This document shows, one piece after another, positions 21,362 to 48,039 of a stretch of 64,000 bases of DNA (its first letter is position 1; each line of letters starts with the position of its first letter). The stretch comes from Woeseiaceae bacterium (GTDB taxonomy: Bacteria; Pseudomonadota; Gammaproteobacteria; Steroidobacterales; Woeseiaceae): NCBI GenBank assembly GCA_021773075.1, contig JAJFKT010000026.1:310356-374355 (forward strand), written 5' to 3'. The notes below the pieces were generated by a model. That model did no database searches and was not told where the DNA came from. It saw only the letters and a program-made list of their open reading frames with translations. The translations under genes were made by a program, and so were the position numbers.

Positions 21362-22674
21362 GCGTGACGTATGCCCTGACCGGGCTTGCCGTGTTAACGG
21401 TGCTCCTTGTGCTTCGCTTCCCGTTAGGGCCTGCGATGTTGCTCGTGGGTATGGGGGGATATGCAACTTTATCGGGCCCGGGTCCGCTATTGGACTTTAT
21501 GAAATCCGCCGCCTATTGGCGTTTTGCATCCTATGATTTCTCGGTCATACCGATGTTCCTCTTAATGGGACAAATCGCCGCGCGGTCCAGTCTCAGCAGC
21601 TCACTGTTCGGTGCCGCAAACTCGTTTTTCGGTCATCGCAAAGGCGGCGTCGCCATGGCGGCGGTCGGAGGATGCGGTGCTTTCGGGGCAATCTGTGGCT
21701 CCTCTTTGGCGACCGCTGGCGCGATGGCCCAGGTGGCGCTACCCGAGCTCAAACGCTATCGCTATTCAGGCGCCCTTGCGACGGGTTCACTGGCTGCTGG
21801 TGGAACCCTGGGCATTTTGATTCCACCGTCAGTTGCACTGGTCGTCTATGCGGTCGCAGTGCAGGCCAATGTGGTTCGAATGTTTGAGGCGGCCCTGATT
21901 CCAGGTTTGCTGGCGATGATGACGTTTTGGGCCACCATTGCCATTTACGTTCGGCTCGTGCCCGGCGCCGGGCCAGTGGGAAAACGTGCGACCTGGCGCG
22001 AGAGACTTCGCGCGCTGGCGGCCACCTGGCCCAGCGCAACGATTTTCCTGGTCGTCGTAGGCGGAATTTACGCAGGCTTTTTTGATCCTACGGAGGCGGC
22101 GGCAGTGGGTGTTGTCGGGTCGGCCGCGGCAGCCTGGGCCAATGGCAGCCTGAATCGTCGCGTATTCAAAGAGGCACTACTTGGCGCTGCTGAAACGACC
22201 GCCATGATTTTCATTATTCTCCTGGGCGCAGAATTTCTGAATGCCTTTCTGGCGCTGTCCGGTTTTCCATCCTTCATGGCTGAACTGGCCGCTCAAAGTG
22301 GCTGGAGCCCCTATACGATCTTGCTACTCATGCTCGTTTTCTATCTGTTGCTGGGATGTTTCATGGACAGTCTGGCGATGATCTTTCTGACCGTTCCGGT
22401 GTTTTGGCCGATCGCCGCAAGTTTGGATTTTGGGCTGTCGCCGGCGGACCTGCAAATATGGTTCGGTATTATCACCCTCGTGGTCGTTGAGTTGGGATTA
22501 ATAACACCGCCAGTTGGCATGAATGTACTCATCATCAACAAGGCCGCCGGCGACGTGCCGTTGCGGGATACGTTTATGGGCACTTTGCCCTTTGTTCTTG
22601 CAGAGCTTATTCGAGTGATGTTGCTGATTATTTTTCCAGGAATAATATTATTCCTGCCCAGGTTGTTGTCATGA
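21358..22674 (+). CDS. TRAP transporter large permease (DctM)
   Basis: 'CGAFGAICGSSLATAGAMAQVALPELKRYRYSGALATGSLAAGGTLGILIPPSVALVVYA'; 4-nt overlap with dctQ. Confidence 0.92.
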   Translation: MSVTYALTGLAVLTVLLVLRFPLGPAMLLVGMGGYATLSGPGPLLDFMKSAAYWRFASYDFSVIPMFLLMGQIAARSSLSSSLFGAANSFFGHRKGGVAMAAVGGCGAFGAICGSSLATAGAMAQVALPELKRYRYSGALATGSLAAGGTLGILIPPSVALVVYAVAVQANVVRMFEAALIPGLLAMMTFWATIAIYVRLVPGAGPVGKRATWRERLRALAATWPSATIFLVVVGGIYAGFFDPTEAAAVGVVGSAAAAWANGSLNRRVFKEALLGAAETTAMIFIILLGAEFLNAFLALSGFPSFMAELAAQSGWSPYTILLLMLVFYLLLGCFMDSLAMIFLTVPVFWPIAASLDFGLSPADLQIWFGIITLVVVELGLITPPVGMNVLIINKAAGDVPLRDTFMGTLPFVLAELIRVMLLIIFPGIILFLPRLLS

Positions 22675-23447
22675 TCAGAGACAGCTATGCGCCGGATCGT
22701 GTTGAATATTTCGCTCTCATGGGTATACCTTTGGTCGAGCCGGGTGATGACCTGACAGGCCTGATCGTAGCGGCTTTGGCGTCCAACAATATGACACTGA
22801 TGGAGGGTGACATTGTGGTGGTCGCCCAGAAGGTTGTTTCCAAGGCGGAGGGTCGAATAGTTACTCTGGCCGATGTGAAGCCTTCAGAGGAAGCCAGGCT
22901 CAGGGCCGCGGAGACCGACAAGGATCCGGCCCTCGTTCAAGTCATCCTTGATGAATCCAACGAGGTTGTTCGGCAGCATCACGGTGTCGTCATCGTTGAG
23001 CATCGATTGGGCTTCGTGATGGCGAACGCGGGTGTCGATCAGTCGAATTCAAATTCCGGTGAAGTAATACTTCTTCCTGAAGATCCCGATGCATCAGCGG
23101 CCCGTTTGGCAACTTCACTGCAAGAGATCGGTGGACAGAATGTAGCTGTGATCGTCAGCGACAGTATCGGTCGTGCATGGCGCAATGGCACAGTTGGTCA
23201 TGCGCTGGGTGTTGCCGGTATGCGAGCTTTGATCGACCTGCGAGAAACGATAGATTTGTTCGAGCGACCGATGCAGGTAACGGAAGTTGCGCTTGCTGAT
23301 GAGATCGCGGCGGGCGCGTCGGCGCTAATGGGGCAGGGTGCAGAAGCCAAACCAGTTGTGATCGTTAGAGGTTTTAACCTGGTTCCCGACGATGAAGCCT
23401 CTGTGCAAACACTGCTGCGATCCAGGGATCTGGATCTATTTCGATGA
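22671..23447 (+). CDS. cofE: Coenzyme F420-0:L-glutamate ligase
   Basis: 258 aa; 'DIVVVAQKVVSKAEGRIV', 'SDSIGRAWRNGTVGHALGVAGM'; lacks the C-terminal nitroreductase domain of actinobacterial FbiB. Confidence 0.92.
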   Translation: MIRDSYAPDRVEYFALMGIPLVEPGDDLTGLIVAALASNNMTLMEGDIVVVAQKVVSKAEGRIVTLADVKPSEEARLRAAETDKDPALVQVILDESNEVVRQHHGVVIVEHRLGFVMANAGVDQSNSNSGEVILLPEDPDASAARLATSLQEIGGQNVAVIVSDSIGRAWRNGTVGHALGVAGMRALIDLRETIDLFERPMQVTEVALADEIAAGASALMGQGAEAKPVVIVRGFNLVPDDEASVQTLLRSRDLDLFR

Positions 23448-24409
23448 GCGGGCAGGTACTTGTTTTGTCCGGCGGTGTCGGTGGCGCAAAACTGGCCTTG
23501 GGTTTGTCGAAAATTCTTGAACCAGAGGAACTCCTGATCGTCGCCAACACGGGCGACGACTTCGAACACATGGGGTTTTATATTTGCCCCGACATCGACA
23601 CGTTGCTGTATACGCTTGGCGGTGTCAGCAATACGGAGACCGGCTGGGGACGAGCGGAGGAGACCTGGTCGTTCATGCAGAATCTGCAACAAAACCATCC
23701 CGAGCAGGCCTGGTTCCAACTGGGTGATAAGGATCTTGAGACGCATAGATACCGTACCGAGGTATTAGCCAGTGGCAAGACTCTTACGGAAGTCACAGCA
23801 AGTCTCGCGCGTCGTTTTCAGATCGGAGCATCAATCCTGCCCATGACTGACGACCCGATGCAGACTTTTGTTTTGGCGGAGTCGGATGCGGGAAAACAGT
23901 GGTTGCCATTCCAGGAATACTTCGTCCGGCAGCGATGCGAGCCGCGTATATGCAGTATCGAGTTTCGTGGGAGAGATAACGCGGCTTTGTCGCCGCAACT
24001 GGAAGGCGCGATTACGGGCGGTAGAATAAGGGCGGTCGTTTTGTGCCCTTCGAATCCGTATCTGAGTATTGACCCCATTCTCGCCGTACCAGGCATGAAG
24101 GAATTGTTGCGCGCCTGTAAAGCACCGGTAATCGCTGTGTCACCAGTGGTTGACGGAAAAGCGCTGAAAGGGCCGACGACCAAAATAATGCAGGAGTTGG
24201 GTCTGGTCAGCGATGTTACGACCATTGCCGAGCATTATCGCGGTATCGTCGATGGCCTTGTAATCGATGAAAAAGATAGTGGCGCACTTGAGACCGTTCA
24301 GGCGAAGGGTATTTCTGCGACCGCTACGAATACCATCATGCTCACACTGGAAGACCGTATTGCGCTGGCCCGGGACGTATTAAAATTCGCGGTCGAACTT
24401 GCTGGTTGA
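23444..24409 (+). CDS. cofD: 2-phospho-L-lactate (or analogue) transferase, F420 biosynthesis
   Basis: 'VLVLSGGVGGAKLALGL', 'NTGDDFEHMGFYICPDIDTLLYTLGG', 'FQLGDKDLETHRYRTEVL', 'VAVSPVVDGKALKGPTTKIM'. Confidence 0.93.
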   Translation: MSGQVLVLSGGVGGAKLALGLSKILEPEELLIVANTGDDFEHMGFYICPDIDTLLYTLGGVSNTETGWGRAEETWSFMQNLQQNHPEQAWFQLGDKDLETHRYRTEVLASGKTLTEVTASLARRFQIGASILPMTDDPMQTFVLAESDAGKQWLPFQEYFVRQRCEPRICSIEFRGRDNAALSPQLEGAITGGRIRAVVLCPSNPYLSIDPILAVPGMKELLRACKAPVIAVSPVVDGKALKGPTTKIMQELGLVSDVTTIAEHYRGIVDGLVIDEKDSGALETVQAKGISATATNTIMLTLEDRIALARDVLKFAVELAG

Positions 24410-24413
24410 TCAA

Positions 24414-25001
24414 ATGAGCCGGGACGAAAGGGACAAATGGGACGATCGCTACCGACAAGGTAGCTATGCAAACAGGCCACACGCGACCGCCCTGTTATCG
24501 GAGTGGTTGCCGCGCCTGCCAAAGGGCCGTGCGCTGGATGTCGGCTGCGGGGCAGGGCGAAATTCGCTCTTTCTTGCTGCAGCGGGTTACCAGGTTGATG
24601 CAGTGGATATTTCTCAGGTGGCCCTTGATCGTGCCCGGCAGACAGCCGATTCCAACGGTCTAAGCGTCGAGTGGATTCAGGCGGATCTCGATGTTGACGC
24701 GTTACCAGAGGGACCTTATGACCTGATAGTCATGGTTCGTTTTGTCAACCAGCCACTAATTTCTCAATTGCTTGATCGCCTGCGCGAGGGCGGTTACCTC
24801 GTTTGTGAGCAACATCTGATTACTCACCGCGAGGTGGTCGGCCCGCGCAACTCCGCTTATCGGCTACGATCGAATGAACTGCTCGAGATCGTGCGAGATG
24901 CCCGTGTGCTGTTTTATCACGAAGGTATCGTTGTGGACCCGGATAGCAGGCAGGCTGCACTGGCGCAGCTTGTTGCCTGTCGCGGCAAGCCGGATTTCTG
25001 A
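24414..25001 (+). CDS. Class I SAM-dependent methyltransferase
   Basis: 'GRALDVGCGAGRNSLFLAAAGYQVDAVDIS'; ATG 4 nt after the cofD stop. Confidence 0.85.
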   Translation: MSRDERDKWDDRYRQGSYANRPHATALLSEWLPRLPKGRALDVGCGAGRNSLFLAAAGYQVDAVDISQVALDRARQTADSNGLSVEWIQADLDVDALPEGPYDLIVMVRFVNQPLISQLLDRLREGGYLVCEQHLITHREVVGPRNSAYRLRSNELLEIVRDARVLFYHEGIVVDPDSRQAALAQLVACRGKPDF

Positions 25002-25362: not shown

Positions 25363-28300
25363 TTACCGTGACTCGACGGAAACAGCGTCGTCCCGATTTG
25401 GATTGGCTGCCGCAGCCATCAGAATGGTGGGCGAGTTATGACTGTCCGTTACGATAACGCCGAGTTCGTGCATTGCGTCCTGTACTGCTGCGGAGACACT
25501 GTGCAAGGGCGCGCCGCCACCTTCCCCACAACCTTTGGCACCGTTATAGCTGAACGGTGACGGTGACGAAGTGCTCGTGCATTTCAAGTCCGGCATATTC
25601 AGGGAAGTCATCGGTGCGTAGTCCGTAAACGTCGCCGTGATCATATTGCCCTCATCGTCGAATTGAAATGCCTCCTGCATAGCAGCACCGATGCCATGAC
25701 AAGCGGCGCCATGCACCTGGCCCTCGACAATCTTGGGGTTCATGGCGACACCACAATCATCGACTATGACGTAATCCAGAATTGTTGGCTGATATGTTTT
25801 GGGATCGACTTCGACTACGGATATATGAATTTGCGCCGCGTAAGTGAGCGTCAGATTGCCAAACTTCTTTCCCTTGTCAGGAAGATCGAAGGGTGGCTTA
25901 TAGACGTGCAGGACGTTCAGCGTGATGTCCCGGAACTCCTCAGGGACGCTGGCGGTATTGCAGTTGGCAAGATTCGACAGCATCCAGAAATTGATAGCGC
26001 GCTCGGGATGGCCTGTCACGCGAACTTCCGGGCCCATTTCGCCGACACCGAGCTCGAGCTCGTCCGGAGTGGCCTCGAGCGCAAAACTTGCCAGGCGCTT
26101 GAGCTCCGCCTTGAGTTTTTCCGCCGCGCCATGCGCAGCTGAAAGACCAGTGACGACAAACTGGCTGGCGATCGTGCCGGATAGTCCAGCGTAACTGTTC
26201 CACTGGCTGTCGAAACCGGATCGTACTTTCACCATGTCGGGGCCGACATTAAGATCATCGGCTATAACCTGTGAAGTGACCGTCTCATGCCCCTGGCCCT
26301 GGGGTACGGAACCCAGCATCGCGACAATGGAACCATCAAGGCCGATCTTGATACGGCAGGACTCGGTATTGCCGGAGAATACTGCGTCGGGGTTGATCAG
26401 CGTAATTTGCCCGAAATTATTTGTTCCCGAGTCGACGGTGGAGCCAATCCCGATGCCGAGCAGACGGCCTTCGGCGCGCGCGTCGGCCTGTTTCTTGCGC
26501 CAATCGTCGTAACCAATCAAGTCCTTGGCTTTTTCGAGCATATCCGGATAGTCGCCGGAATCGTATACGCAGCCGTTTGGCGTTGTGTACGGCATCTGTT
26601 CAGGGCGAATGTAATTGCGAAGGCGCATTTCATCGGCGGCGATGCCAAGTTCATGGCCACAAATATCCAAAACACGTTCCATGAACCACAGATGCTGCAA
26701 GCGTGAGTAGCCTCGGTTTGGCGTACACGGTGGTTTGTTGGAGACAACCTGTGAGAAGTCGATCTGGATGTTGCGAACCCCGTACAGGCCACAGTAAACC
26801 TGTGACCATATGGCGCAGCCCAGCGGCTCATAACGGGTAAACGCACCGCAATCGTCGAGGTGTCGTGAACGAATGCCCTTGATAACACCATTCGCATCGA
26901 GCGCGATCTCGGTATCGAGGTAGGTTCGTTCACCACCATGAAATGACGCGAGATTATCGCTGCGAGTTTCAACCCACTTGACGGCACGGCCGCCAACAGT
27001 ACGCGCGGCAACGGCGGTCAGGCCGATGTAAGGGTGAATTACCGTTTTCGTACCGAAGTTTCCGCCAATGTCGTGTGTCCGCATGCGGATTTGTTCGGTA
27101 CTCACGCCGAGATAGCCAGCGAGCATCTGTGCCGTGACGCCTGGAAGTCCGTCGTTGGAGAGGATTTCAATATCGCCTCGCCTCGACCAACTGGCAACGG
27201 TGGCTGCGGCTTCGATGGGCGTACTGGAAAAACGGTGGAAGTGCATGCGCTTGATCTTGACGACATGCGCAGCCTCGGCAAACGCCGTGTCGACATCGCC
27301 GTGGTCCCAGACATCATTGAAAATGCGGTTGCTACCCACTGCTGGGTGGATGATCGTTTCGTCCTTGAGCGAATCTTCGGACGAGACGTTCACCGGTAGC
27401 GGTTCGTACTCGACCTCAACCAGATCGGCGGCATCCTCCACCAGGCGTGCGGATTCAGCGACGATCATCACAATCGGTTCACCCTGGTGCCGCACGGTGT
27501 CGATCGCAATACCGTGGTCGACGACCAGCGCTCCGGGTTCCGTTCCCAGCTGTAGAAACGGCTGGGTTTGTTCCGCTACCTCTGCGCCGGTCATCGTGAA
27601 TACGACTCCCGGCAGTGCGTCCGCCGCGGAGGTATCGATATTCAGGATTTTCGCGTGCGCATAGGGTGAGCGTACGAATCCGATGTGCAGCATTTCGTCA
27701 TGCTGGTAGTCGTCCACGAATAGTCCGAGACCGCGTACAAGTCGCTCATCTTCTTTGCGTCGCAAATGTTGCCCGACCCAGCTGTCACGGCCGTCGTGAT
27801 CGACCTGGATGGACGTTTGAATTGGCTTGACCGGGTTTATTGCATCCCTCGCGGTCTTGCGGCTTGCTTGCCCCGATACGATCGGCATAGCCGCACCCGT
27901 CGTTTCGTGCGGCGCTTGAGTTGCGTTCTCGGTGGCAGATTGTGCTGCCGAACCGAACAGGCGAGCAAAGAATGCGGCGATCGCGCCGAACAAGCCGATT
28001 CGCGGCGGTGCTGCGGCACTCGCGGCCTGTGAGACCGCCTCGAAATGTTCTTTGCTGGCCAACGCACTGCGCAGACTGTCAATAACGCTGTTGATTTCCT
28101 TTTCAGCGTAACCTCGCATGCCGCCGCCCGCGATGGACAGAATTTTGCCATAAATCTGCGTGGTACCCGTCCAGTTGACCGTGGTCCCACCGTCGCTGGC
28201 GTCGGCGAGCTCAAACGCAACAATCATGTTATAGGCGCCGCCCATTACGTTGCCCTTACCGACGTATCGTGCCCGGGTCGGTGCGTCGCGTTCGTCGAGC

Positions 28301-28503
28301 GTCATTTCGGTCGTGGCGATGCCGTGAATCCGGCCGACACCGACCTTGACCTTTACGATCGCGGTGTTTGGATCGGACTCTTTCATGCTCATGCTGTGAA
28401 AAGTCGGCAGGACAGGCACGAATTTCTGTGGATCGGCGAGCAGTTCAAACGTATCCGCACGCGGGATGCCGACCTCGAAGTTACCGTCAAAGGACATTTC
28501 CAT
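25363..28503 (-). CDS. CoxG/SRPBCC domain fused to a xanthine dehydrogenase-family molybdopterin-binding large subunit (CoxL-like)
   Basis: 1046 aa; N-terminal 'MSFDGNFEVGIPRADTFELLADPQKFVPVLPTF', linker, then 'VGQHLRRKEDERLVRGLGLFVDDYQHDEMLHIGFVRSPYAHAKI' and Mo-hydroxylase motifs. Active-site segment reads PNRGYSR, not AYxCSFR. Confidence 0.88.
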   Translation of the reverse strand: MEMSFDGNFEVGIPRADTFELLADPQKFVPVLPTFHSMSMKESDPNTAIVKVKVGVGRIHGIATTEMTLDERDAPTRARYVGKGNVMGGAYNMIVAFELADASDGGTTVNWTGTTQIYGKILSIAGGGMRGYAEKEINSVIDSLRSALASKEHFEAVSQAASAAAPPRIGLFGAIAAFFARLFGSAAQSATENATQAPHETTGAAMPIVSGQASRKTARDAINPVKPIQTSIQVDHDGRDSWVGQHLRRKEDERLVRGLGLFVDDYQHDEMLHIGFVRSPYAHAKILNIDTSAADALPGVVFTMTGAEVAEQTQPFLQLGTEPGALVVDHGIAIDTVRHQGEPIVMIVAESARLVEDAADLVEVEYEPLPVNVSSEDSLKDETIIHPAVGSNRIFNDVWDHGDVDTAFAEAAHVVKIKRMHFHRFSSTPIEAAATVASWSRRGDIEILSNDGLPGVTAQMLAGYLGVSTEQIRMRTHDIGGNFGTKTVIHPYIGLTAVAARTVGGRAVKWVETRSDNLASFHGGERTYLDTEIALDANGVIKGIRSRHLDDCGAFTRYEPLGCAIWSQVYCGLYGVRNIQIDFSQVVSNKPPCTPNRGYSRLQHLWFMERVLDICGHELGIAADEMRLRNYIRPEQMPYTTPNGCVYDSGDYPDMLEKAKDLIGYDDWRKKQADARAEGRLLGIGIGSTVDSGTNNFGQITLINPDAVFSGNTESCRIKIGLDGSIVAMLGSVPQGQGHETVTSQVIADDLNVGPDMVKVRSGFDSQWNSYAGLSGTIASQFVVTGLSAAHGAAEKLKAELKRLASFALEATPDELELGVGEMGPEVRVTGHPERAINFWMLSNLANCNTASVPEEFRDITLNVLHVYKPPFDLPDKGKKFGNLTLTYAAQIHISVVEVDPKTYQPTILDYVIVDDCGVAMNPKIVEGQVHGAACHGIGAAMQEAFQFDDEGNMITATFTDYAPMTSLNMPDLKCTSTSSPSPFSYNGAKGCGEGGGAPLHSVSAAVQDAMHELGVIVTDSHNSPTILMAAAANPNRDDAVSVESR

Positions 28504-28506
28504 GGC

Positions 28507-28995
28507 CTACGTCTCCCGCATTTGTTTGGCAGCGGCATCGACCGCTGTGTATATATTTTGGTAACCGGTGCAACGGCACAGATTGCCCGAGATTCCCTTA
28601 CGAATCTCATCCCTCGTCGGGTTGGGATTCGCTGCCAGCAGGTCTTTTGCCGCCATTAGCATGCCCGGCGTGCAGTAACCGCACTGTAAGCCGTGGTGTT
28701 CGGAGAACGCCGTTTGCAGCGGATGAAGTTGCTCTCCCTGCTCCAGGCTTTCGACGGTTTCAACCTCGCCACCATCGGCCTGTACTGCGAGGCAGGTGCA
28801 GGACTTAACCAGCTTGCCGTTCAACATGATGGTACAGGCGCCGCAGTAGCTCGTATCGCAACCAATGTGCGTGCCGGTAAGACCGAGTTCCTCACGAATA
28901 AACTCCACCAACAAGGTTCTCGGTTCGATATCCCGCTGGTAAGTGTTGCCGTTGACGGTGATTTCCACCAGTACTGTTTGTTTGTTTTCACGCAT
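28507..28995 (-). CDS. Molybdenum hydroxylase [2Fe-2S] small subunit (CoxS-like)
   Basis: '[16 protein letters not shown]' and '[16 protein letters not shown]...[12 protein letters not shown]'. Confidence 0.93.
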
Positions 28996-29881
28996 AACGA
29001 TGTCCCCCCGTTACCGAAGCACCACGGCTGCGTGCTACGGATCGTTCTGCCGCTTCGATCACCAGTGAGCGCAACATGGCACGCTTGAATTCTTCGGAGC
29101 CGCGCGCATCAGGTGGCGGCGATGAGGATGACACAATAATATCTGCCGCCTGCGCCAACGTATCTTCGCTCATGTCGCTGTCGCGCAATACGGCTTCGGC
29201 CTCTGCCGAACGCACTGGTGTCGAGCCGGCCCCGCCGATGGCCAATCGAACTTGCACACACTTACCATCGGCCATAGTGATGAGTACGCCCGCGGTTGCT
29301 GTGGGGTAGCACGGTGCAGCACGCTTGAACGCCACATAGGCGCTGCCACTATTGGCCGGTGGCATGGGCACCTGGACCTCCGTAATAATTTCATCGGGTG
29401 CCAGGGAGGTCGTATAGGAATCGAGTATCAGGTCCTCGACCGTTACGCTGCGTTGACCACGGGCGCTGGTGCAAACTACGCTTGCGCCCAATGTTTGCAA
29501 GGCACAAGGCCAATCGCCGCTGGGGTCTGCGATACTGACGCCACCCCCAATAGTGCCCATATTACGTACCTGCTTGTCGGCAATTCCGCCGGCGCATTCC
29601 TGTAACAGGGGAATCTGCCCGGCAATGTCCGAAGCAGCGATATCGGCGTGACGTGCCAGTGCGCCTATATGCAGCGTATCGCCACGCTGCTCGATGTGCG
29701 CGAGATTTGGCAAACGGCCAATATCGATGATTTCGTCCGTATCGCCCAGCCGGAGTTTCAGCATTGGGATCAGACTTTGGCCACCTGCCAGGACGTTTGC
29801 GTCATCACGGAGCTTCGCCAGAAGTCCGAGTGCATCATCAAGCGTCGCGGGACGGTGATAGTTAAAGGGAGCTGGGTACAT
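28988..29881 (-). CDS. Molybdenum hydroxylase FAD-binding medium subunit (CoxM-like)
   Basis: '[16 protein letters not shown]', '[19 protein letters not shown]'. Confidence 0.92.
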
Positions 29882-33732: not shown

Positions 33733-33849
33733 GTCAATCATCAAAGAACTGGCAGGCAAGACCGGGTGTGCACAGTGGCCTAATATTATTCGGACGCGAT
33801 AGCTACAATGAATCGCCGCCGCTTGAAACCAAATGGAGAATCTCACCAG

Positions 33850-37027: not shown

Positions 37028-37945
37028 ATGATGAGCGAGAATCGCGGAAAATTTACACTCGAAGCGGCAGAGGCCTATCTCGCCGAAGAGCCAGATATGC
37101 AGGTTGAGAAACTTTCCAACCGTCTGTTTACAATAAGCGACGGCCAGTGTCGCACGATCTTTATTGCCGGTGAGTCGGGCGTCATCGCGTTCGATACTTT
37201 CGGTACGCCGGGCCGCGCACGTGCCTACAAGAAGGCGATTGAAGCGACGCTGCCGGGGCAAACGATCAATGCCATCGTGTACTCGCATGATCACCTGGAT
37301 CACGCGGGGTTTGCCGCCGATCTCGCCCCGGACGCCGAGATCATCGCCGACGAACTCTGCGCCAAGGTCATAAAATGTCGTGAGGCTGACGGGCAGGTAC
37401 AACCGACGCGCGTCCTGGCGGGCGAGCGAAACGAGATCAATGTTGACGGCGTCGATTTGGTCTTGCTCAATCCGGGGCCGACGCACGGTTCCGGCAACAT
37501 GGCAGCTTACTTCGCGGAAGAGGGCGTATTATTCTCGAGCGACACGATTCTCGCGAACGCAAAGTATGGCTTTATGCCCGACTATCATTTTGCGAACTTT
37601 GTGAAGTATATGCGTGGATTCCTGGAGCTTTCGTGGGACCGGTTCGTGCCGGGCCGTTACGAGATGACGAACCGCGCTGGTTTTGAGCGGGGCATTGAGT
37701 TTGTCGACGACATCATGACGGCCTGCCAACAAGCGTTCGCCAATTTCGTTCCGATCTGGTTGTACGATCCGATGAAGGGCTTCGTTGGTCAGCAGCTCGG
37801 TGAGAAATACGGCGATCTCGAGGGCTTCGATGGCCACATTGGCCAGATGTCGATTCGCATCGTGCATCACTACCTGATGGGCGGCTGGGGTCTCGAAGAC
37901 ACGCCTGAGCCAGCTGTGTTGCTCGAAGATAAGGTCAGTCTGTGA
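37028..37945 (+). CDS. MBL-fold metallohydrolase, paralogue of the preceding gene
   Basis: 'VYSHDHLDHAGFAADLAPDAEIIAD'; similar throughout to 36089-37021. Confidence 0.88.
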   Translation: MMSENRGKFTLEAAEAYLAEEPDMQVEKLSNRLFTISDGQCRTIFIAGESGVIAFDTFGTPGRARAYKKAIEATLPGQTINAIVYSHDHLDHAGFAADLAPDAEIIADELCAKVIKCREADGQVQPTRVLAGERNEINVDGVDLVLLNPGPTHGSGNMAAYFAEEGVLFSSDTILANAKYGFMPDYHFANFVKYMRGFLELSWDRFVPGRYEMTNRAGFERGIEFVDDIMTACQQAFANFVPIWLYDPMKGFVGQQLGEKYGDLEGFDGHIGQMSIRIVHHYLMGGWGLEDTPEPAVLLEDKVSL

Positions 37946-39147: not shown

Positions 39148-40320
39148 TTCGGTTTCGCTGCCATCGTAGGCCACGATCGCGGTACCCGATAGCGGCTCGC
39201 CGCCGTCCGGCGTAACGCGGTAGGTCTCCTGAAAATACAGCGAGTGCGTGCGTTCGTCGTTCATGACATGTGGATGCATCGAGCACACCATATTTTCCGG
39301 CAGAATGAAGTCGAAGCCTTCTCCGATGCGTGGGAATTCGATCATTGTCATGCCTATGGAATGGCCGCAAACGTGGCCCGAGCGATATCCACGATCCACG
39401 AACGGTTTCATGCAAATGCGGTGCACCTCATCCGCCGGTCGACCGGCTTTCATGTGTTCGCGCGTCAATTCGTGAAATTCCTGCTGCGCGGCCATCATAT
39501 CCGCCGTGATGTCATCCATGCCGTTGGGCATCAGTGGACGAGAATACTCTACCCAATGACCACCTTCTCCGGAGATCTCAAGCCCGTACATCATTCCGTC
39601 GCTCGCCTGTACCGGGCGGTTTGACGGGAACACCATCTGTGGGAGTAGAGAGCCGTTCGGTCCGATTTGCACCATGTCCATCGTGTTGCGCGCACAGCCG
39701 GCAGCCGAAAATACATTCTCTGCAACGCCCATGAGTTCAGCTTCGGTCTTGCCAGGCTCGTAAGCCTTCATGACTTCCAGTACACCGCGTTTATTGATGT
39801 CCATTGAATGACGCACCGAGGCAATTTCCTCGTCAGATTTTTGCGCACGCGCATAGTCAAACGGTATGTCGAAATCGACTAATTCAAAATCTTTTGCAGC
39901 CAGAGCGGAGTAGTCGCGAACATTAATGATGTACTCATAGCCGTATATGCCAACCTTTTTCGCGCCTTTGTCTGCAAGGTAGTCGGCCATCCATTCACCA
40001 CAATGCGCGGGCAGTTCCCGGTGTTTGAGAAATGTCGCGCTGTGATCGCCGACCCAGGTTGCCTCACGCGGAAACACGGCGACCGGATCGCTGTCGGGCG
40101 TGATCACGACGTAGGCGTAGCGATGCAGAATCAGGAATCCCGCCAGATAACGAATGGCACCTTCAAAGCCTGAGTATTCACTGCCGCTGACAATCAGCGC
40201 GTCCAGACCATGTTCTTCCATTGCAGCACGAACGTTGTTGTAGCGGCGGTCAATCTCCGACTGACTCGAACGAAAGCGATTGACGTAGTCGGTGGCGACT
40301 TCCTGTTGTGCTGTACTCAT
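39133..40320 (-). CDS. M24-family metallopeptidase (Xaa-Pro aminopeptidase/creatinase fold)
   Basis: 'ALIVSGSEYSGFEGAIRYLAGF' N-terminal domain; 'GHVCGHSIGMTMIEFPRIGEG' C-terminal metal site. Confidence 0.87.
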   Translation of the reverse strand: MSTAQQEVATDYVNRFRSSQSEIDRRYNNVRAAMEEHGLDALIVSGSEYSGFEGAIRYLAGFLILHRYAYVVITPDSDPVAVFPREATWVGDHSATFLKHRELPAHCGEWMADYLADKGAKKVGIYGYEYIINVRDYSALAAKDFELVDFDIPFDYARAQKSDEEIASVRHSMDINKRGVLEVMKAYEPGKTEAELMGVAENVFSAAGCARNTMDMVQIGPNGSLLPQMVFPSNRPVQASDGMMYGLEISGEGGHWVEYSRPLMPNGMDDITADMMAAQQEFHELTREHMKAGRPADEVHRICMKPFVDRGYRSGHVCGHSIGMTMIEFPRIGEGFDFILPENMVCSMHPHVMNDERTHSLYFQETYRVTPDGGEPLSGTAIVAYDGSETELVPL

Positions 40321-41243
40321 TTTTGGTTCTCCAGGGTCCAGGAGTGCTCCAGTCCCTTGATCATGCCTGTGACAGCTTCGTTAAGTGGGCAGGGTACACC
40401 CACATCGCGACCAATGGCGGCTATCCCTGCATTCAAGGCGTCGACTTCAGTAGGGCGTTGTGCCTCGACATCTTGCAGCATGCTGGGTTTGTGATTGTAA
40501 GCAACTTCTCTGCCGTGATCGATCATCTTGTCAGGGTCGTCGTCGAGAACGATCCCTAAAGCATCCGCAACGGCGACCCCTTCTTTGGCCAGCGCAGACA
40601 TAAGCAGCCGAACGCCCGGTTGATCACATGCGACGCCATGCGGCAAACGCGTCAGTGCGCCCATGGCATTGGACGCGGAGTTGAAGATAAGTTTAGTCCA
40701 TTGCGCGCCACGTGCATCCTCCATTGCGATGACATCGAGGCCGGCACGCTTGCAGGCGTCGGCAAGTTTCGTGACTTCTTCCATGCTCGCGGGCTTGGGA
40801 GCGAACGGGCCGATCCAGGTGCTGCCGCCGGTGTCCTGGTTGCAAACACCGGGCGCTGAAATATGTCCGGCTGGAAATGTTGTGCCCGTAATAACCCGCG
40901 GCACGTATTCAGAGATAATCTCTTCGCTACCAACACCATTTTGTACCGAGCACACGGCGCCGTCGGCAAAAATAGCTGCTGTGGCTTCCATAGCCGCTCG
41001 CGTATGCAGTGTCTTGACTGCAATGATTCCCAATTCGCAAGACGGTATTTCTGCAGCGTCGCTGCGCGCATTGAGTTTGGCAACGAAGTCACTCTTGCCC
41101 GTCAGTCGCAGGCCGTTGGCATTAATGGCATCAACATGTTCTTTGTACGGGTCGTATGCCCAGACTTCCACATCATCCAGGCGGCCAAGGTGAGCGGCGA
41201 ACAAACTGCCGATTGCACCACAGCCAATAATACAGACTCTCAT
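40317..41243 (-). CDS. Ketopantoate reductase-like (PanE/ApbA family) oxidoreductase
   Basis: 'CIIGCGAIGSLFAAHLG', 'SVQNGVGSEE', 'QWTKLIFNSASNAMGALT'. Confidence 0.87.
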   Translation of the reverse strand: MRVCIIGCGAIGSLFAAHLGRLDDVEVWAYDPYKEHVDAINANGLRLTGKSDFVAKLNARSDAAEIPSCELGIIAVKTLHTRAAMEATAAIFADGAVCSVQNGVGSEEIISEYVPRVITGTTFPAGHISAPGVCNQDTGGSTWIGPFAPKPASMEEVTKLADACKRAGLDVIAMEDARGAQWTKLIFNSASNAMGALTRLPHGVACDQPGVRLLMSALAKEGVAVADALGIVLDDDPDKMIDHGREVAYNHKPSMLQDVEAQRPTEVDALNAGIAAIGRDVGVPCPLNEAVTGMIKGLEHSWTLENQK

Positions 41244-41256
41244 TTGCTACTCCCGA

Positions 41257-42216
41257 TTAGGACTTTCGCTTCCAACTCGTTTCATGGGCCTTGACGAGTC
41301 GGTACATGGTTTCGTGATAGGGCGCAGGAATGCCTGCTTTGTGAGCTTCACGTACGATTGAGCCGGTTATCCAGTCGACCTCGGTGAGGCGCCGGTTCCG
41401 CACGTCGTCAAGCATTGAGGTGATGTGGCCGTACTCGTCATCGCCACTTTGGCCATGGTTTACAGCCTGCACGTTCATTTTCCAGGGGTCGCCGGCGATG
41501 ATCACGCCGCGTGCCTCGGCAATGTGTTTACCTTCGGCCATCATGTCGAAAACCAGATGGCCCAGATCACTTATCTCATTGCGCTCGGCAAATGCTTTGA
41601 TGTGCGGCAGGTTCGTGATGGCGCCGATGCTGTTAACGGCAGAATTAAATATCAGTTTTGACCATTGATGCGGTAACAGATCTTCGTAGGCCTCAGCTTT
41701 GAGGCCGGAGCGATTGATCAACGCCTCAAGCTCCGTGACGAATTCGAATGGCGCACCATGCTCGGCCCATGGCCCCATCCATGTTGCCGTATCCAGTTCG
41801 TACTCAACGTGGGTATCGGAGTGTTTGACACCGCTCATGAATGTTACGCCGGAGATAAGAGGCCAGTCGCCGAATTGCCGCACCGCTTCCTCACAACCAA
41901 GACCATTTTGTACCAGCAGGAGTTTCGCGTTTGGAAAATGACCCTGTAAGCCTTCCGCACTCGCTGCCACAGCCGTCGCTTTGGTCGCGAGAATGATCAG
42001 GTCAACATCGCCAAGTTCGGCTGGATTCGTCGATGCGCGGACGGTCGCGTTGAGCTGCGATTTTCCACTGATTCTCAATCCGTCTTCGTTGAGCTCACGG
42101 GCATGTGATTCACGCCGTGTCAGCACTGTGGTCTCGACCAGGCTTGCAAGGTGGCCGACAAACAGACTGCCGATAGCACCCGCACCGACCACGCAAACTT
42201 TGTTGATGTTTTGCAT
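41257..42216 (-). CDS. Ketopantoate reductase-like (PanE/ApbA family) oxidoreductase, paralogue
   Basis: 'CVVGAGAIGSLFVGHLA', 'LVQNGLGCEEAV', 'QWSKLIFNSAVNSIGAIT'. Confidence 0.87.
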   Translation of the reverse strand: MQNINKVCVVGAGAIGSLFVGHLASLVETTVLTRRESHARELNEDGLRISGKSQLNATVRASTNPAELGDVDLIILATKATAVAASAEGLQGHFPNAKLLLVQNGLGCEEAVRQFGDWPLISGVTFMSGVKHSDTHVEYELDTATWMGPWAEHGAPFEFVTELEALINRSGLKAEAYEDLLPHQWSKLIFNSAVNSIGAITNLPHIKAFAERNEISDLGHLVFDMMAEGKHIAEARGVIIAGDPWKMNVQAVNHGQSGDDEYGHITSMLDDVRNRRLTEVDWITGSIVREAHKAGIPAPYHETMYRLVKAHETSWKRKS

Positions 42217-42338
42217 ATTCTTTTTTGGTGCAGGGTATCCCGTTGGCTAGCAGGAAATAGTAAACACGGCGTCTGAGAACGTCTTGCTTGACGCTGCAGA
42301 AGTGATTGATTTTCTGCGCAATTGATAAGCGGTAGTGA

Positions 42339-43310
42339 CTACTTTCTTGCTTCCACGCTGCCGAATCGCTTGCGCAACCCACTTGGCGAAATATCGAAAC
42401 GGCTCTTGAATGCGCGACTGAAATGCGCCGGGTCGTTGAAACCTCGTCGAAACGCAATTTCGCTGACTCGCATATGGCTCATGTTCGGATCGAGCAGGTC
42501 CTCTCGCGTCGCCTTAAGACGGCGTTCCCACAACCATTTGCTCACGGATATTCCAGCCTGGTGAAACAGACTGTGCAGATAGCGCATTGAAATACCGTTC
42601 GCCTGTGCGATTTTCTCAGGTGATAGCTCGGAGTCCATGAAATTATTTTCCATATACTCGAGCGTGCGCCGAAACAGTGCAGACTGTTGTCTATGCTGCT
42701 GCTCGTAGTCGTGATCGGCCTCGGAACGCAATATGGCTGCCGTCAGCTCCATAAGGCTTTCCGCGAGCGTATATTGCTCGCTCTCAATGAATGTGTCGCC
42801 CTCAGAGGCCAGAGACTTCAACATCGTGTGAACGATCGTCACCAAACCGCCCGGCGGCATTAGCCGAGCGCGGAATTTCCGGTCTTTTTGGTGTGCCAGA
42901 ATACGCTCTTTATAAATTGCATTGGGTATGTGCAATATCAGGCGCTGGCTTTGTTGCGTGTGAATAACCGTGTAGGGTTCGCCTGCCGACATGAGCGACA
43001 ATCCGCCCGGATGGTGCGTGAATTCGGTATCCCCCTGCTTTATCAGAACCGTACCTTCAATCTGAGTCGCGAGCAGGAAATCGTCGTTGGCATCCTGAGC
43101 GATGTCCCGGTTGCGGCGGTAGATGGCAATCGGATCGATGCAGATATCAAACAACTCGAGCTTGGCGAATGGCAATTCCCGACAGGTGAAATTTTGGATC
43201 GGCTGGCCGTGAACTTCGGTCGCGACCGCAACATGGGCTTTGCGAACCATTTCCTGCAGCTCAGAGTCGTTGCTCGAAATGCTATTTTCGCTGTTGCGGG
43301 AGGCTGCCAT
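42339..43310 (-). CDS. AraC-family transcriptional regulator
   Basis: 'ISMRYLHSLFHQAGISVSKWLWERRLKATREDLLDPN...VSEIAFRRGFNDPAHFSRAFKSRFDISPS'. Confidence 0.92.
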   Translation of the reverse strand: MAASRNSENSISSNDSELQEMVRKAHVAVATEVHGQPIQNFTCRELPFAKLELFDICIDPIAIYRRNRDIAQDANDDFLLATQIEGTVLIKQGDTEFTHHPGGLSLMSAGEPYTVIHTQQSQRLILHIPNAIYKERILAHQKDRKFRARLMPPGGLVTIVHTMLKSLASEGDTFIESEQYTLAESLMELTAAILRSEADHDYEQQHRQQSALFRRTLEYMENNFMDSELSPEKIAQANGISMRYLHSLFHQAGISVSKWLWERRLKATREDLLDPNMSHMRVSEIAFRRGFNDPAHFSRAFKSRFDISPSGLRKRFGSVEARK

Positions 43311-43496: not shown

Positions 43497-44402
43497 ATGA
43501 AGCTCGCAACATTCGAGATTAAAGCCACCGGCCAGCAAACCATTGGCGCGTTCGATGGCGAGAAATACATTGATGCGGTGGCGTCAGGTAACGGCGCCGT
43601 TCCGACTTCCCTCACCGAGGTACTCGAACAGGGCGACGCCGGAATGGATGCACTCAGGAATGCCGTCGCGAATGCCAACGGCGCGGGTTATTCAGCAGAA
43701 GAAATTGAATTGCTGCCGCCAATAACGCGCCCAGGGAAAATTATTCACACGGCTTGCAATTTCGACGCTCATCTCGATGAGCTTGCTGGTTGGCAAGCGC
43801 CGGAATGGCAGGAACACAACTGGGGTGAGTTTCATTTCGAACATCCCACAGGTTTCTTGCAGGCGGGTAACTGTGTTGGCGGCTCGGGTGCGTCGGTGTC
43901 TGCACCACCATTCACGAAGCAACTCGACTATGAGATTGAGGTTGGAATCGTCATCGGCAAGCCGGCCTATCAGGTGAAAATTGAAGACGCTCTCGACTAC
44001 GTAGCCGGACTGGCGATATTCAATGATCTGTCTGCGCGCGATATTCAAGCCCGGGAACACGCAAACAAAGTCATTTTGCTTGGGAAGAGTTTCAAGGGAT
44101 CCTGCCCGTTGGGTCCATGGCTCGTGACTCTCGACGAGCTCGAGGACCCCGATAATCTCGAAATGAAGCTGTATCTGAACGGCGAGTTACGTCAGGAATC
44201 CGGCACGAACAACATGCACTACAATGTTACGCAGCTGGTTTCATGGTGGTCGAACATGCCGCTCGAGCCAGGCGACATCATTACTTCCGGCAGTCCACCG
44301 GGTGTCATATCGGGCATGAAGGATCCGCAGTGGCTGAAGCCGGGCGACCTTCTGGAAGCGCACGTCGAAGGCCTCGGCTGCCTTGTGACACCCATCAGCT
44401 AA
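43497..44402 (+). CDS. Fumarylacetoacetate hydrolase (FAH)-family protein
   Basis: 'QLDYEIEVGIVIGKPAYQV', 'AIFNDLSARDIQ', 'GKSFKGSCPLGPWLVT', 'GDIITSGSPPGV'. Confidence 0.92.
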   Translation: MKLATFEIKATGQQTIGAFDGEKYIDAVASGNGAVPTSLTEVLEQGDAGMDALRNAVANANGAGYSAEEIELLPPITRPGKIIHTACNFDAHLDELAGWQAPEWQEHNWGEFHFEHPTGFLQAGNCVGGSGASVSAPPFTKQLDYEIEVGIVIGKPAYQVKIEDALDYVAGLAIFNDLSARDIQAREHANKVILLGKSFKGSCPLGPWLVTLDELEDPDNLEMKLYLNGELRQESGTNNMHYNVTQLVSWWSNMPLEPGDIITSGSPPGVISGMKDPQWLKPGDLLEAHVEGLGCLVTPIS

Positions 44403-44441
44403 TGCGATTGCGGCCTAATCGATAGATTGCGAGTAAAAGAA

Positions 44442-45710
44442 ATGACAACAGTAGATAAAGCTCTGGTAGATAAGGCGATTGCAGAGATCGATCGGGATCG
44501 ACTGGTGAAGCTGGTCATGGATCTTGTCGATATTCCGAGCCCCACCGGGTTCGAAGGCGACATGGCACGTGCTGTCCACGAAGTATTGGGTGAAGCGGGA
44601 TTCGATGCCACGTTGCAGCCCATTGGTGATGAAAGATACAACGCGATCGGCCGCCGGCAAGGCGAAGGTGGCGGCAAATCCTTGATGTTCAACGGCCACC
44701 TCGATACGTCTTTTGGGCCCGAGCAGGCACACCGCGGCCTGGGCTACCAGTGTAAGGGCACACTGGTCGACGATGAGTGGATTTACGGCATGGGTACTTT
44801 CAACATGAAAAGTGCCATGGCGACCTACGTCACCGCAGCAGAATCCATCCGTAAAGCAGGTATCAAGCTCGGCGGTGACATCGTCATCGCGGGCGTCGCT
44901 GGCGAGATCGAAAAAGCGCCGGTCAACGAATACGAAGGTCCGCAGTACCAGGGTTATGGTGTCGGAACTAAATTCGCGATCACTCACGGTGCCATAGCTG
45001 ACTACTGCATTCTTGGTGAACCGACCAATATGAAGCTGATTCCGCGTCACTGCGGCAGCACCTGGGTAAAGATCACAATTCCAGGACACCTGATTCACAC
45101 CGCCTGGTCGGACGTGGAAAAGAACGCGATCAACAAGTCGCGGGTCGTCCTCGATGAGATTCACCGTTGGATACCGGACTATTGCGAGCGCAATACGCTC
45201 GACGGCTTCCAGCCGCGGGTGAATGTTTCTGCTGTTGAAGCAGGCTGGAGCTGGCGCGGCGCAAGAACGCCGGACAATTGCGTGATTTTCATGGATGTGC
45301 GTACGCTTCCTGAGGACCTGCCATTGAAAGCCTACAATGATGTGCGCGCAATGGTCGCGGCGCTTGTCGACAAAAACCCGCAGCTCGCCGGGACCAAGGT
45401 GGAGACTTTCGTTACAGCACCTGGGACTTCAATTCCCGACGACCACCCTCTGATCCAGAACATCGTCAAGGCGCATGAGGAACAGCTCGGCAAGCCACCT
45501 GAATTTGATGTGGAAACCTGGATGAGTGATGCGGCACACATGAACCGTTACGGCATTCCTACCGTCAACTACGGCTCGGCCGGTCGCATTCGTGCCGGCG
45601 GTGGTGGTTTCTCCACGCATCAGGGCGAGGCAGTCCACATCGGTGACATGATCGACATCACCAAGGTATACATACAGACCTTAATGCAGATATGCGGCGT
45701 TGTTGACTGA
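44442..45710 (+). CDS. M20-family peptidase/deacylase (ArgE/DapE-like)
   Basis: 'SLMFNGHLDTSFG', 'WIYGMGTFNMKSAMATYVTAAESIRKAG', 'RHCGSTWVKITIPGHLIHTAWSD'; start chosen at ATG 44442. Confidence 0.88.
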   Translation: MTTVDKALVDKAIAEIDRDRLVKLVMDLVDIPSPTGFEGDMARAVHEVLGEAGFDATLQPIGDERYNAIGRRQGEGGGKSLMFNGHLDTSFGPEQAHRGLGYQCKGTLVDDEWIYGMGTFNMKSAMATYVTAAESIRKAGIKLGGDIVIAGVAGEIEKAPVNEYEGPQYQGYGVGTKFAITHGAIADYCILGEPTNMKLIPRHCGSTWVKITIPGHLIHTAWSDVEKNAINKSRVVLDEIHRWIPDYCERNTLDGFQPRVNVSAVEAGWSWRGARTPDNCVIFMDVRTLPEDLPLKAYNDVRAMVAALVDKNPQLAGTKVETFVTAPGTSIPDDHPLIQNIVKAHEEQLGKPPEFDVETWMSDAAHMNRYGIPTVNYGSAGRIRAGGGGFSTHQGEAVHIGDMIDITKVYIQTLMQICGVVD

Positions 45711-48039
45711 AGCGGATTCACTAACGCTGGCTCGCTGCGATGATCTGCCAGCGCTGCTGAGTACTGCGCGCCAGCTTCGTGAGCAGGCTCACCCGACGAT
45801 TTTAAGCTACTCGCCGAAAGTGTTTATTCCGCTGACGCAGCTTTGTCGCGACGTTTGCCACTACTGTACCTTCGCCAAGACGCCAAAGAATCTGGAGCGA
45901 CCATTTTTGCTGCCAGAGCAGGTGCTGGAGATCGCGCGTAGCGCGGTTGCCGCGGGATGCCACGAGGCCTTGTTTACGCTCGGTGACAAGCCGGAGTTGC
46001 GTTACCAGGCAGCACGGAAGGCTTTGAAATCCCTGGGCCATGACTCGACTCTCTCCTATCTTCAGGCCATGGCTGATCTGGTATGGCGCGAGACCGGCCT
46101 GCTGCCGCATGTTAATCCCGGTGTGATGGATCGTGACGAGATTGCCAAATTGCGCCCCGTTGCCGTGTCGATGGGACTCATGCTCGAAAGCTCGTCCTTG
46201 CGCTTGATGGAAAAGGGCGGTCCACACTATGGATCGCCGGACAAGCATCCCGATGTTCGCCTTGCCACCATCGCCGCGGCGGGTATTGAAAAGGTGCCGC
46301 TAACGTCGGGGATACTTATCGGTATTGGTGAGACGCGCGCGGAGCGCGTCGAGTCCTTGCTGGCGCTGCGCGATTTGCATACTACCTACGGACATATTCA
46401 GGAAATCATAGTCCAGAACTTCCGGCGCAAAGCGGGCACGATCATGGCAAACGCGCCCGAACCCGATATTGCGGAGCTGCAATGGACAATCGCGATCGCA
46501 AGAATTCTGTTTGGCCCCGACATGAATATTCAGGCGCCACCGAACCTTTCATCGGAGCACCTGGGCGAAATTATTGATGCTGGTATTAATGACTGGGGCG
46601 GGATTTCCCAGCTAACCCCGGACCACGTCAATCCAGAGGCGCCCTGGCCCGAAGTCGAACGTCTGGCCGGCATTTGTGCCGAGTACGGCAAAACGCTAGT
46701 ACCGCGTTTGCCCCTGTATCCCGAATACGTGGACAAGCGCGACGAATGGGTCGACCCGCAGTTGCACACGGCACTCGTACGACGAGCGGACGCGTCGGGG
46801 TTCGCACGTGATTGTGAGTGGTCACCGGGTATTGGTGCAGCGGTGCCTGCGGCAGCGAGCGTAGCAGTTACGGATTATTCACACTTGCCGACACGAATTT
46901 CGGCCGTTTCCACGTTGCTGCAAAAAGCACAGGCAGGGAAGGCGCTGAACGAAAGTGACGTATCAACGCTGTTCGCAGCACGCGGCAGCGATTACCAACA
47001 TGTCGTTCGCGCTGCGAACGAATTGCGTCAGGAGCTTTGTGGCGACACCGTTAGCTACGCTGTCAATCGCAATATAAATTACACAAATATCTGCTCCTAT
47101 CACTGCAAGTTTTGCGCATTTTCAAAGGGCAGCAGCAGTAAAAGCCTGCGAGGTCCGGGCTACAACATGCCGGTAGAGGAAGTTGTTGAGCGCGGCCTGG
47201 AGGCCTGGCAGTGCGGCGCGACCGAGGTCTGTTTGCAGGGCGGCATTCACCCCTCGTATACGGGACAGACTTACCTCGACATCACAAGCGCTATTAAGGA
47301 AGCCATTCCCGGGATTCATATACACGCATTCTCGGCGCTCGAGATTTCGCAGGGAGCAAAGACGCTCGACATTACGGTCGAAGCGTTTTTAAAGGATTTG
47401 AAAGCGGCCGGTCTTGGTTCACTACCGGGTACGGCAGCCGAAATTCTCGACGATGAGGTGCGACGCGTTCTTTGTGCAGACAAACTGAATACTCAAGAGT
47501 GGTTGCAGGTCATCGCTATGGCACATCGCGTTGGATTGCCGACGACGTCAACGATCATGTTCGGGCACATGGACCGGCCAGAGCACTGGAGTCGTCACCT
47601 CTTGCATCTGCGCGAGCTGCAGCTCGAGACCGGTGGCATCACTGAGTTCGTGCCACTGCCGTTTGTTCATATGCAGGCACCCATCTACCGTCGCGGTCAG
47701 GCGCGCAAGGGCCCGACATTTCGTGAGGTGGTACTGATGCACGCAGTTGCTCGCCTGGTATTTCACCGACATATTCCGAACATCCAGGCATCGTGGGCCA
47801 AGCTTGGCGAAGGTGGCTTACGGGTGTTGCTGGATGCAGGCGTGAATGATCTGGGTGGAACCTTAATGAATGAGAGCATCAGTCGTGCGGCAGGTGCGAC
47901 CCATGGTCAGGAAATGACCGCAGAACGTCTGCAAGCTGTCATAGCCGATGCCGGGCGTAACGCGCGGCAACGCACTACCTTGTACCAGGATGTCGACAAC
48001 TTTGCCGGGCGCCACCGAGCGAATCCGGGCAAATCTTAG
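45700..48039 (+). CDS. fbiC: Fused FO synthase (CofG + CofH; bifunctional radical SAM)
   Basis: Two radical-SAM CxxxCxxC motifs: 'CRDVCHYCTFAKTP' and 'CSYHCKFCAFSKG'; CofG- and CofH-specific context; TTG start overlapping the M20 gene by 11 nt. Confidence 0.93.
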   Translation: MLTEADSLTLARCDDLPALLSTARQLREQAHPTILSYSPKVFIPLTQLCRDVCHYCTFAKTPKNLERPFLLPEQVLEIARSAVAAGCHEALFTLGDKPELRYQAARKALKSLGHDSTLSYLQAMADLVWRETGLLPHVNPGVMDRDEIAKLRPVAVSMGLMLESSSLRLMEKGGPHYGSPDKHPDVRLATIAAAGIEKVPLTSGILIGIGETRAERVESLLALRDLHTTYGHIQEIIVQNFRRKAGTIMANAPEPDIAELQWTIAIARILFGPDMNIQAPPNLSSEHLGEIIDAGINDWGGISQLTPDHVNPEAPWPEVERLAGICAEYGKTLVPRLPLYPEYVDKRDEWVDPQLHTALVRRADASGFARDCEWSPGIGAAVPAAASVAVTDYSHLPTRISAVSTLLQKAQAGKALNESDVSTLFAARGSDYQHVVRAANELRQELCGDTVSYAVNRNINYTNICSYHCKFCAFSKGSSSKSLRGPGYNMPVEEVVERGLEAWQCGATEVCLQGGIHPSYTGQTYLDITSAIKEAIPGIHIHAFSALEISQGAKTLDITVEAFLKDLKAAGLGSLPGTAAEILDDEVRRVLCADKLNTQEWLQVIAMAHRVGLPTTSTIMFGHMDRPEHWSRHLLHLRELQLETGGITEFVPLPFVHMQAPIYRRGQARKGPTFREVVLMHAVARLVFHRHIPNIQASWAKLGEGGLRVLLDAGVNDLGGTLMNESISRAAGATHGQEMTAERLQAVIADAGRNARQRTTLYQDVDNFAGRHRANPGKS

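Follow-up and report, generated by a model that had tools for sequence, protein, structure and literature searches.

Cofactor F420 biosynthesis genes within a putative F420-dependent catabolic island of a Woeseiaceae bacterium

Why does a bacterium of the Woeseiaceae keep genes for synthesis of the deazaflavin cofactor F420 dispersed among genes for transport and catabolism? The question is raised by a stretch of 64,000 nucleotides, hereafter the window, comprising positions 310,356 to 374,355 of contig JAJFKT010000026.1 (assembly GCA_021773075.1). A preliminary description of this DNA had placed cofE, cofD, cofC and a fused cofG-cofH gene within about 25 kb and proposed that the host makes F420, or a variant of it, mainly for a pathway encoded nearby. 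The evidence assembled here makes it probable that this DNA forms a self-sufficient catabolic island that depends on F420. Its most likely function would be the reductive, F420H2-dependent breakdown of an electron-poor (hetero)aromatic acid.

All four genes are intact, their reported coordinates are correct, and their products exceed the curated NCBIfam equivalog cut-offs. CofE, the F420-0:gamma-glutamyl ligase (22671..23447, + strand; 258 residues), matches TIGR01916 with 282 bits (cut-off 181) and aligns end to end with the solved ligase 2phn; it has a single domain, without a C-terminal nitroreductase domain of the FbiB type. CofD (FbiA; 23444..24409, +), the transferase of lactyl-diphospho-guanosine (LPPG) or enolpyruvyl-diphospho-guanosine (EPPG) to the deazaflavin precursor 7,8-didemethyl-8-hydroxy-5-deazariboflavin (FO), scores 298 bits with TIGR01819 (cut-off 257) and aligns along its full length with the solved transferases 6uvx and 3c3d. 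The guanylyltransferase CofC (FbiD; 33808..34572, +; TIGR03552, 149 bits, cut-off 105) is listed as an open reading frame from 33808; the in-frame ATG at 33850 suits the family match better and is the likely start. It retains Lys28, Asp120, Thr153, Ser174, Asp200 and Asp202, the counterparts of the ligand-binding residues listed for FbiD (PMC8764529), which cover the Mg and substrate ligands. The fused FO synthase CofGH (FbiC; 45700..48039, +) reaches 1110 bits with PRK09234 (cut-off 1018), and both domain models also match far above their cut-offs; two CxxxCxxC radical-S-adenosylmethionine motifs are retained, CRDVCHYC at residue 49 and CSYHCKFC at residue 465. The loss of catalytic residues, which the preliminary description had named as grounds for refutation, is not seen among the residues examinable in CofGH and CofC. 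In the whole host genome, CofC, CofD and CofG are each represented by one gene above cut-off. Because four equivalog-level matches to one pathway lie within 25 kb, and three of them are single in the genome, the set is, judged from sequence, not a chance finding, and we infer that the host produces F420.

The kind of F420 can be predicted from CofC. A serine or threonine at the position of CofC Ser162 marks the use of 3-phosphoglycerate (PMC8764529); the host enzyme carries Gly171 at this diagnostic site, as do, with glycine, the enzymes of all the carrier genomes introduced below. This residue points to ordinary F420, made via the 2-phospholactate or phosphoenolpyruvate route, and 3-phosphoglycerate-derived F420 of the Mycetohabitans type, considered as a candidate, was rejected on the same ground as unlikely.

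The cof genes fall into three groups, each beside transport or catabolic genes, as had been described. In the first, a run of TRAP transporter genes ends in cofE and is followed by cofD and a methyltransferase gene, with overlaps of 4 bases between dctM and cofE and between cofE and cofD. The second consists of a gene for a transporter of the major facilitator superfamily (MFS) and cofC, and the third has the order FAH-M20-CofGH-PuuE. All are on the + strand, with minus-strand blocks or about 10 kb between them, and gene order alone suggests that they are three separate transcription units.

What could use the cofactor was addressed by the genome-wide profile searches for Cof, Fno and F420-binding oxidoreductase families that had been recommended. 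The genome contains exactly two genes matching PF00296 (LLM), and both are in the island. LLM1 (35056..36096, +) is a Mer-like luciferase-like oxidoreductase of the F420 type. LLM2 lies beyond the window, at 67964-69061 (contig coordinates minus 310355), its PF00296 match being found at contig position 378358, 4 kb past the window end. Directly behind it, with a 4-base overlap, is the gene for the F420:NADPH reductase Fno (69058-69732 in the same numbering), the only Fno above cut-off in the genome; the island thus continues for about 6 kb beyond the window. PF01243 detects PdxH and two proteins that weakly match the PPOX model dependent on flavin mononucleotide (FMN), and no F420-type PPOX enzyme was found with this family in the host genome. 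By comparison, other F420-producing gammaproteobacterial genomes searched have up to 62 LLM matches. Because the island also holds the only recognisable F420-using enzymes of the genome, these results suggest that the host makes F420 to break down one particular compound, and favour the earlier proposal of a mainly local use.

Both LLM proteins resemble the F420-dependent methylenetetrahydromethanopterin reductase, Mer. The best sequence matches are all to F420-dependent Mer, and a structure model of LLM2 (predicted local distance difference test score of 82, built on the L013 sequence, which is 78% identical to host LLM2) shows a Mer-like fold: its best eight PDB matches are all F420-dependent Mer, with E-values of 1e-21 to 1e-23, versus 1e-16 for FMN luciferase. 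In Mer, a Gly-Ile/Val pair lies beneath the F420 deazaflavin (PMC11094777); it is retained as Gly-Ile in LLM2 and Gly-Val in LLM1. That the two proteins would use FMN, the F420 genes being unrelated to them, has in its favour that the LLM superfamily is mixed and that the curated Mer equivalog cut-off of 349 bits is not reached (LLM2 scores 164); it is nevertheless very unlikely given the sequence and fold matches, the retained pair, and the position of LLM2 next to Fno in the host and in one operon with CofGH elsewhere. We infer that LLM2 uses F420. The same low score speaks against the idea that LLM1 and LLM2 are true Mer, acting in tetrahydromethanopterin-linked one-carbon metabolism. Mer is indeed their nearest characterised family, but the idea is highly improbable: no one-carbon gene was found in the island (genes for tetrahydromethanopterin elsewhere in the genome were not searched), and the catalytic Glu6 of Mer, whose replacement by glutamine drops activity to 0.4% (PMC11094777), corresponds to glycine in LLM1 by alignment and to leucine in LLM2 with the N-terminal register set by eye. 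Because Glu6 is replaced while the Gly-Ile/Val pair is kept, LLM1 and LLM2 are classed as F420-type proteins that are not Mer.

Comparison with other genomes ties the FO synthase to a particular set of catabolic genes. The comparison set consisted of the 80 best CofGH relatives of the genome collection, against whose loci all island proteins were searched. Among the 48 loci longer than 20 kb, cofC, cofD and cofE are present in 30, 25 of which also have Fno; the four of these inspected have the gene order Fno-E-D-C-GH. Five loci have CofGH in a catabolic operon instead: L008 (OY282354.1), L013 (Thiotrichaceae UBA4486) and the metagenome-assembled genomes (MAGs) L037 and L039, all gammaproteobacterial, and, in part, L084 (the alphaproteobacterial MAG OFTM306). 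The four distant gammaproteobacteria share the core LLM2-FAH-M20-CofGH-PuuE-HMGL-KPR-KPR-M24, with identities to the host proteins of 69-79% for most core enzymes and 58-61% for FAH. L039 has the order CoxGL-CoxS-CoxM, AraC, LLM2-FAH-M20-CofGH-PuuE-HMGL-KPR2-KPR1-M24, MFS, MBL2, MBL1, with CofE, CofD and CofC 20 kb upstream of the operon; in L008 a molybdopterin oxidoreductase is inserted into the core, in UBA4486 a cyclase-type protein replaces PuuE, and the L037 locus ends at a contig edge. On the single short contig of L084 (JAJFFI010000037.1, 1-7602), CofD-CofC-CofGH is followed immediately by LLM2, a KPR-like gene, FAH and M20; its LLM2, FAH and M20 proteins are 55-62% identical to those of the host. 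In all five carrier genomes CofC is present and there is exactly one CofG gene, the operon copy.

The host holds the same set rearranged: CoxM-S-GL at 25363-29881, MFS at 32464, MBL1/2 at 36089-37945, M24-KPR1-KPR2-AraC at 39133-43310, FAH-M20-CofGH-PuuE at 43497-48947, CoxL2 at 62140 and, past the window, CoxS2/M2, HMGL, LLM2 and Fno. UBA4486 has almost the complete island in contiguous form, the cof genes, Fno, both molybdenum (Mo) hydroxylases and the catabolic operon forming one block: directly beside the operon are CoxL2/S2/M2 (70/62/43% identical to the host proteins), CoxM1/S1/GL1 (52/67/56%), CofC, CofD, CofE, Fno and MFS, while the opposite flank of the operon has an RND gene and a YCF48-type gene. 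This block and the sole CofG within the operon agree with the predicted dedication of F420 to the local pathway. In the CofGH tree the host groups with the four gammaproteobacterial carriers and with L025, L040 and L041 (Shimodaira-Hasegawa-like approximate likelihood ratio support of 98); since L084 is found among other Alphaproteobacteria, the link of CofGH with LLM2-FAH-M20 may have originated or spread repeatedly. L040, a Legionellaceae-labelled MAG, has a complete Fno-CofE-CofD-CofC-CofGH operon (6937-12391), and no LLM match to LLM2 in its genome. A narrow literature search found no description of an LLM2-CofGH catabolic operon.

Several observations weigh against a dedicated island. The host CofC, CofD and CofE are not specially close to the copies of the carriers, and LLM1 is not conserved with the operon. 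In three carriers (G101, G103 and G104) the number of LLM matches is 8-12, which means that use of F420 is not confined to the island in these genomes. Two genomes of the host genus, G039 and G047, keep CofD and CofC without a close LLM2, from which it appears that the cofactor can serve other purposes within the genus. Ddn (PF04075) has no match in the host genome, with a silent control that makes this weak evidence of absence. Members of the LLM family can use FMN, and sequence cannot settle the choice of cofactor. Finally, the substrate class is deduced mainly from one hydrolase, the M20 protein, and from two Mo-hydroxylases, and the enzymes belong to broad families. The two congeneric genomes, together with the stand-alone Fno-E-D-C-GH operon of most other CofGH loci, are what might be expected if F420 were a general-purpose cofactor whose genes just happen to be located in a gene-rich catabolic region. 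We regard this as unlikely, in view of the two LLM genes, both in the island, the lack of a detected F420-type PPOX, and the synteny of CofGH with catabolic genes in five other genomes with one CofG each. The G039 genome has, besides its intact CofD gene, a second, broken one with an internal stop (G039:C22:293241-293931; L093, L094).

How the island might work can be outlined, although the order of reactions and the substrate class are speculative. CofGH would make FO, from which CofC, CofD and CofE would produce ordinary F420. Fno would reduce F420 with NADPH, and LLM2, probably with LLM1, would transfer a hydride from F420H2 onto an electron-poor ring or a conjugated C=C or C=N bond. An electron-poor (hetero)aromatic acid is proposed as the substrate because the M20 protein, which resembles the 5-nitroanthranilate aminohydrolase NaaA, PuuE, HMGL, M24 and two xanthine-dehydrogenase-type hydroxylases fit it. 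The two Mo-hydroxylases would hydroxylate the ring, which LLM2 would then reduce. Removal of an amino group and ring opening would fall to the M20 protein and to hydrolases of the PuuE or M24 type, and the resulting chain would enter central metabolism through FAH, both ketopantoate-reductase-type dehydrogenases and HMGL, which is isopropylmalate-synthase-like.

The M20 hydrolase (44427..45710, +) is central to this outline. It matches NaaA (5k8m) with 191 bits versus 57 bits for DapE, and a DapE/ArgE label was rejected, NaaA fitting far better. The sequence FNMKS at residue 125 puts an asparagine at the site of the bridging-metal aspartate of M20 deacylases, as in NaaA, and Arg280 corresponds to the arginine altered in 5k8p; asparagine and arginine are both kept in the carriers where covered. 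The protein thus resembles NaaA and is a predicted aminohydrolase. As in 5-nitroanthranilate degradation by Bradyrhizobium JS329, a FAH-type hydrolase is encoded nearby; however, the known pathway is without F420 (PMC10306065). Moreover, about 190 bits over 403 residues do not make the host protein an orthologue of NaaA, and no 5-nitrosalicylate dioxygenase was recognised near it.

Other known systems share parts of the arrangement. The compact proteobacterial operon Fno-CofE-CofD-CofC-CofGH encodes the same enzymes, but in the host they are split, CofE and CofD following a TRAP transporter, CofC following an MFS transporter and CofGH being part of a catabolic operon. Reductive nicotinate degradation in Eubacterium barkeri has a logic akin to that proposed here, with Mo-hydroxylation, ring reduction, amide hydrolysis and a hydroxymethyl-acid dehydrogenase; it is an analogy only, as other enzyme families are involved and the ring is reduced without F420. 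In picrate and 2,4-dinitrophenol degradation by Rhodococcus and Nocardioides (npd genes), an Fno of the NpdG type acts with a hydride transferase of the LLM type on an electron-poor aromatic compound (PMC8498797). The adjacent Fno and LLM2 of the host would resemble these in working principle; in contrast, the host is Gram-negative, its LLM is closest to Mer, and its set includes the FO synthase gene itself within the operon, two Mo-hydroxylases, and NaaA-, PuuE-, KPR- and M24-type enzymes. It is conceivable, and we propose it tentatively, with the balance somewhat against it, that the island encodes a new aerobic reductive pathway in Proteobacteria for degrading an electron-poor (hetero)aromatic acid, combining Mo-hydroxylation, hydride transfer from F420H2 by a Mer-like LLM, and NaaA-like, metal-dependent hydrolysis with ring opening; F420 would essentially be kept for this pathway, whose operon includes the sole FO synthase gene.

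The remaining core enzymes are encoded as follows. The FAH-family hydrolase or decarboxylase (43497..44402, +; PF01557, 206 bits) precedes M20, and PuuE, a polysaccharide-deacetylase-fold hydrolase related to allantoinase (48078..48947, +; 69-74% identical in three carriers), follows CofGH. HMGL, related to homocitrate and isopropylmalate synthases, is beyond the window (66714-67913, contig coordinates minus 310355). On the minus strand are KPR1 (40317..41243; 69-74% in four carriers) and KPR2 (41257..42216; 69-72% in four carriers), both of the ketopantoate-reductase family, and the pita-bread protein M24 (39133..40320; 73-79% in four carriers), creatinase- or ectoine-hydrolase-like with an altered metal site; by inspection it has no usual prolidase metal-ligand pattern, and its structure model (mean score 45) was unusable. 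An AraC-type regulator (42339..43310, -) is 46-47% identical to proteins of L013 and L039, where it adjoins LLM2.

The first Mo-hydroxylase is encoded on the minus strand by a CoxG-CoxL1 fusion of an SRPBCC domain and the large subunit (25363..28503; 53% identical in L039, 56% in UBA4486), the 2Fe-2S subunit CoxS1 (28507..28995; 70% and 67%) and the flavin adenine dinucleotide subunit CoxM1 (28988..29881; 51-52% in both). Of the second set, the large subunit CoxL2 (62140..64000, -; 70% in UBA4486) is cut by the window end, with CoxS2, CoxM2 and CoxG2 following beyond it. A carbon monoxide dehydrogenase role was rejected: CoxL1 has RGYSR in place of the form I AxRCSFR motif, and CoxL2 is XdhA-like. 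Adjoining CoxL2, at 59998-62137, are a MoxR-type AAA+ ATPase and a vWA protein (CoxD/CoxE-like), genes that are usual for Mo-hydroxylase maturation. Past the window (C19:370356-390000, L005; 2140-15620), the second Mo-hydroxylase set, a CoxG-like SRPBCC protein, HMGL, LLM2 and Fno are followed by a dimethyl sulfoxide-reductase-family enzyme with iron-sulphur and membrane subunits; UBA4486 has a similar iron-sulphur subunit (41%) near its island.

Further genes are an S-adenosylmethionine-dependent methyltransferase downstream of cofD (24399..25001, +; Pfam Methyltransf_25), the MFS transporter of monocarboxylate/oxalate type directly upstream of cofC (32464..33732, +; 57-61% in L039 and L013), and two metallo-beta-lactamase-fold hydrolases, MBL1 (36089..37021, +; 73% in L039) and MBL2 (37028..37945, +; 65% in L039). 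F420-dependent LLM proteins also act in antibiotic biosynthesis (PMC8498797), and the island might accordingly make a secondary metabolite rather than degrade a compound. This is improbable, as no polyketide or peptide synthetase was seen among the open reading frames read, while catabolic regions typically contain genes such as those found here for uptake-type TRAP and MFS transporters, AraC regulators, two Mo-hydroxylases, and hydrolases of the FAH, M20 and MBL families. A small Rieske-type 2Fe-2S protein without NCBIfam match is encoded between cofC and LLM1 (34535-34924, -); it is absent from the length-filtered list of open reading frames. Upstream of the TRAP-CofE run, at 4222-17129, are genes for a sulfatase, a TonB-dependent receptor (6341), two imidazolone-type amidohydrolases, a FAD-linked oxidase and an aminotransferase, with another TonB-dependent receptor at 17349.

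The host assembly is a draft of 4.09 Mb in 37 contigs (completeness 95.8%, contamination 6.96%), in which the window is placed on a 921 kb contig, C19. RpoB shares 91.5% identity with its counterpart in a genome of the same genus, 71-76% with those of Gammaproteobacteria, 67% with that of Cupriavidus and about 59% with those of Alphaproteobacteria, from which the host is classed as gammaproteobacterial. Because the gene is on contig C21, this result concerns the assembly and not contig C19 directly. Pairwise identities were preferred to an RpoB tree, which had odd long branches for the alpha- and betaproteobacterial rows. Placement by 16S ribosomal RNA was rejected: the sole long small-subunit match, on the small contig C32 (G000:C32, L111), is 77-83% identical to alpha- and gammaproteobacterial references and may be part of the contamination of about 7%, which is why RpoB was used. 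Of 101 genomes sampled from the host family, five have CofD, so F420 appears rare and patchy there. Among 399 genomes of the phylum, no LLM2 relative with an E-value of 1e-80 or lower was found outside this host, so the system is rare; no plasmid relatives of M24 or LLM2 above 60% identity were found.

According to a 2021 review, experimental work on bacterial F420-dependent reductases and F420-reducing dehydrogenases had not gone beyond the Actinobacteria (PMC8498797). In many of the gammaproteobacterial F420 producers searched, LLM genes number in the tens, which makes it hard to trace what the cofactor does in them. The host has two LLM, one Fno and a fixed, co-conserved set of enzymes, of which UBA4486 has nearly the same in one block. 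The role of F420 in Proteobacteria is thereby narrowed to a small set of testable enzymes, which may reveal a novel means of degrading compounds with electron-poor rings.

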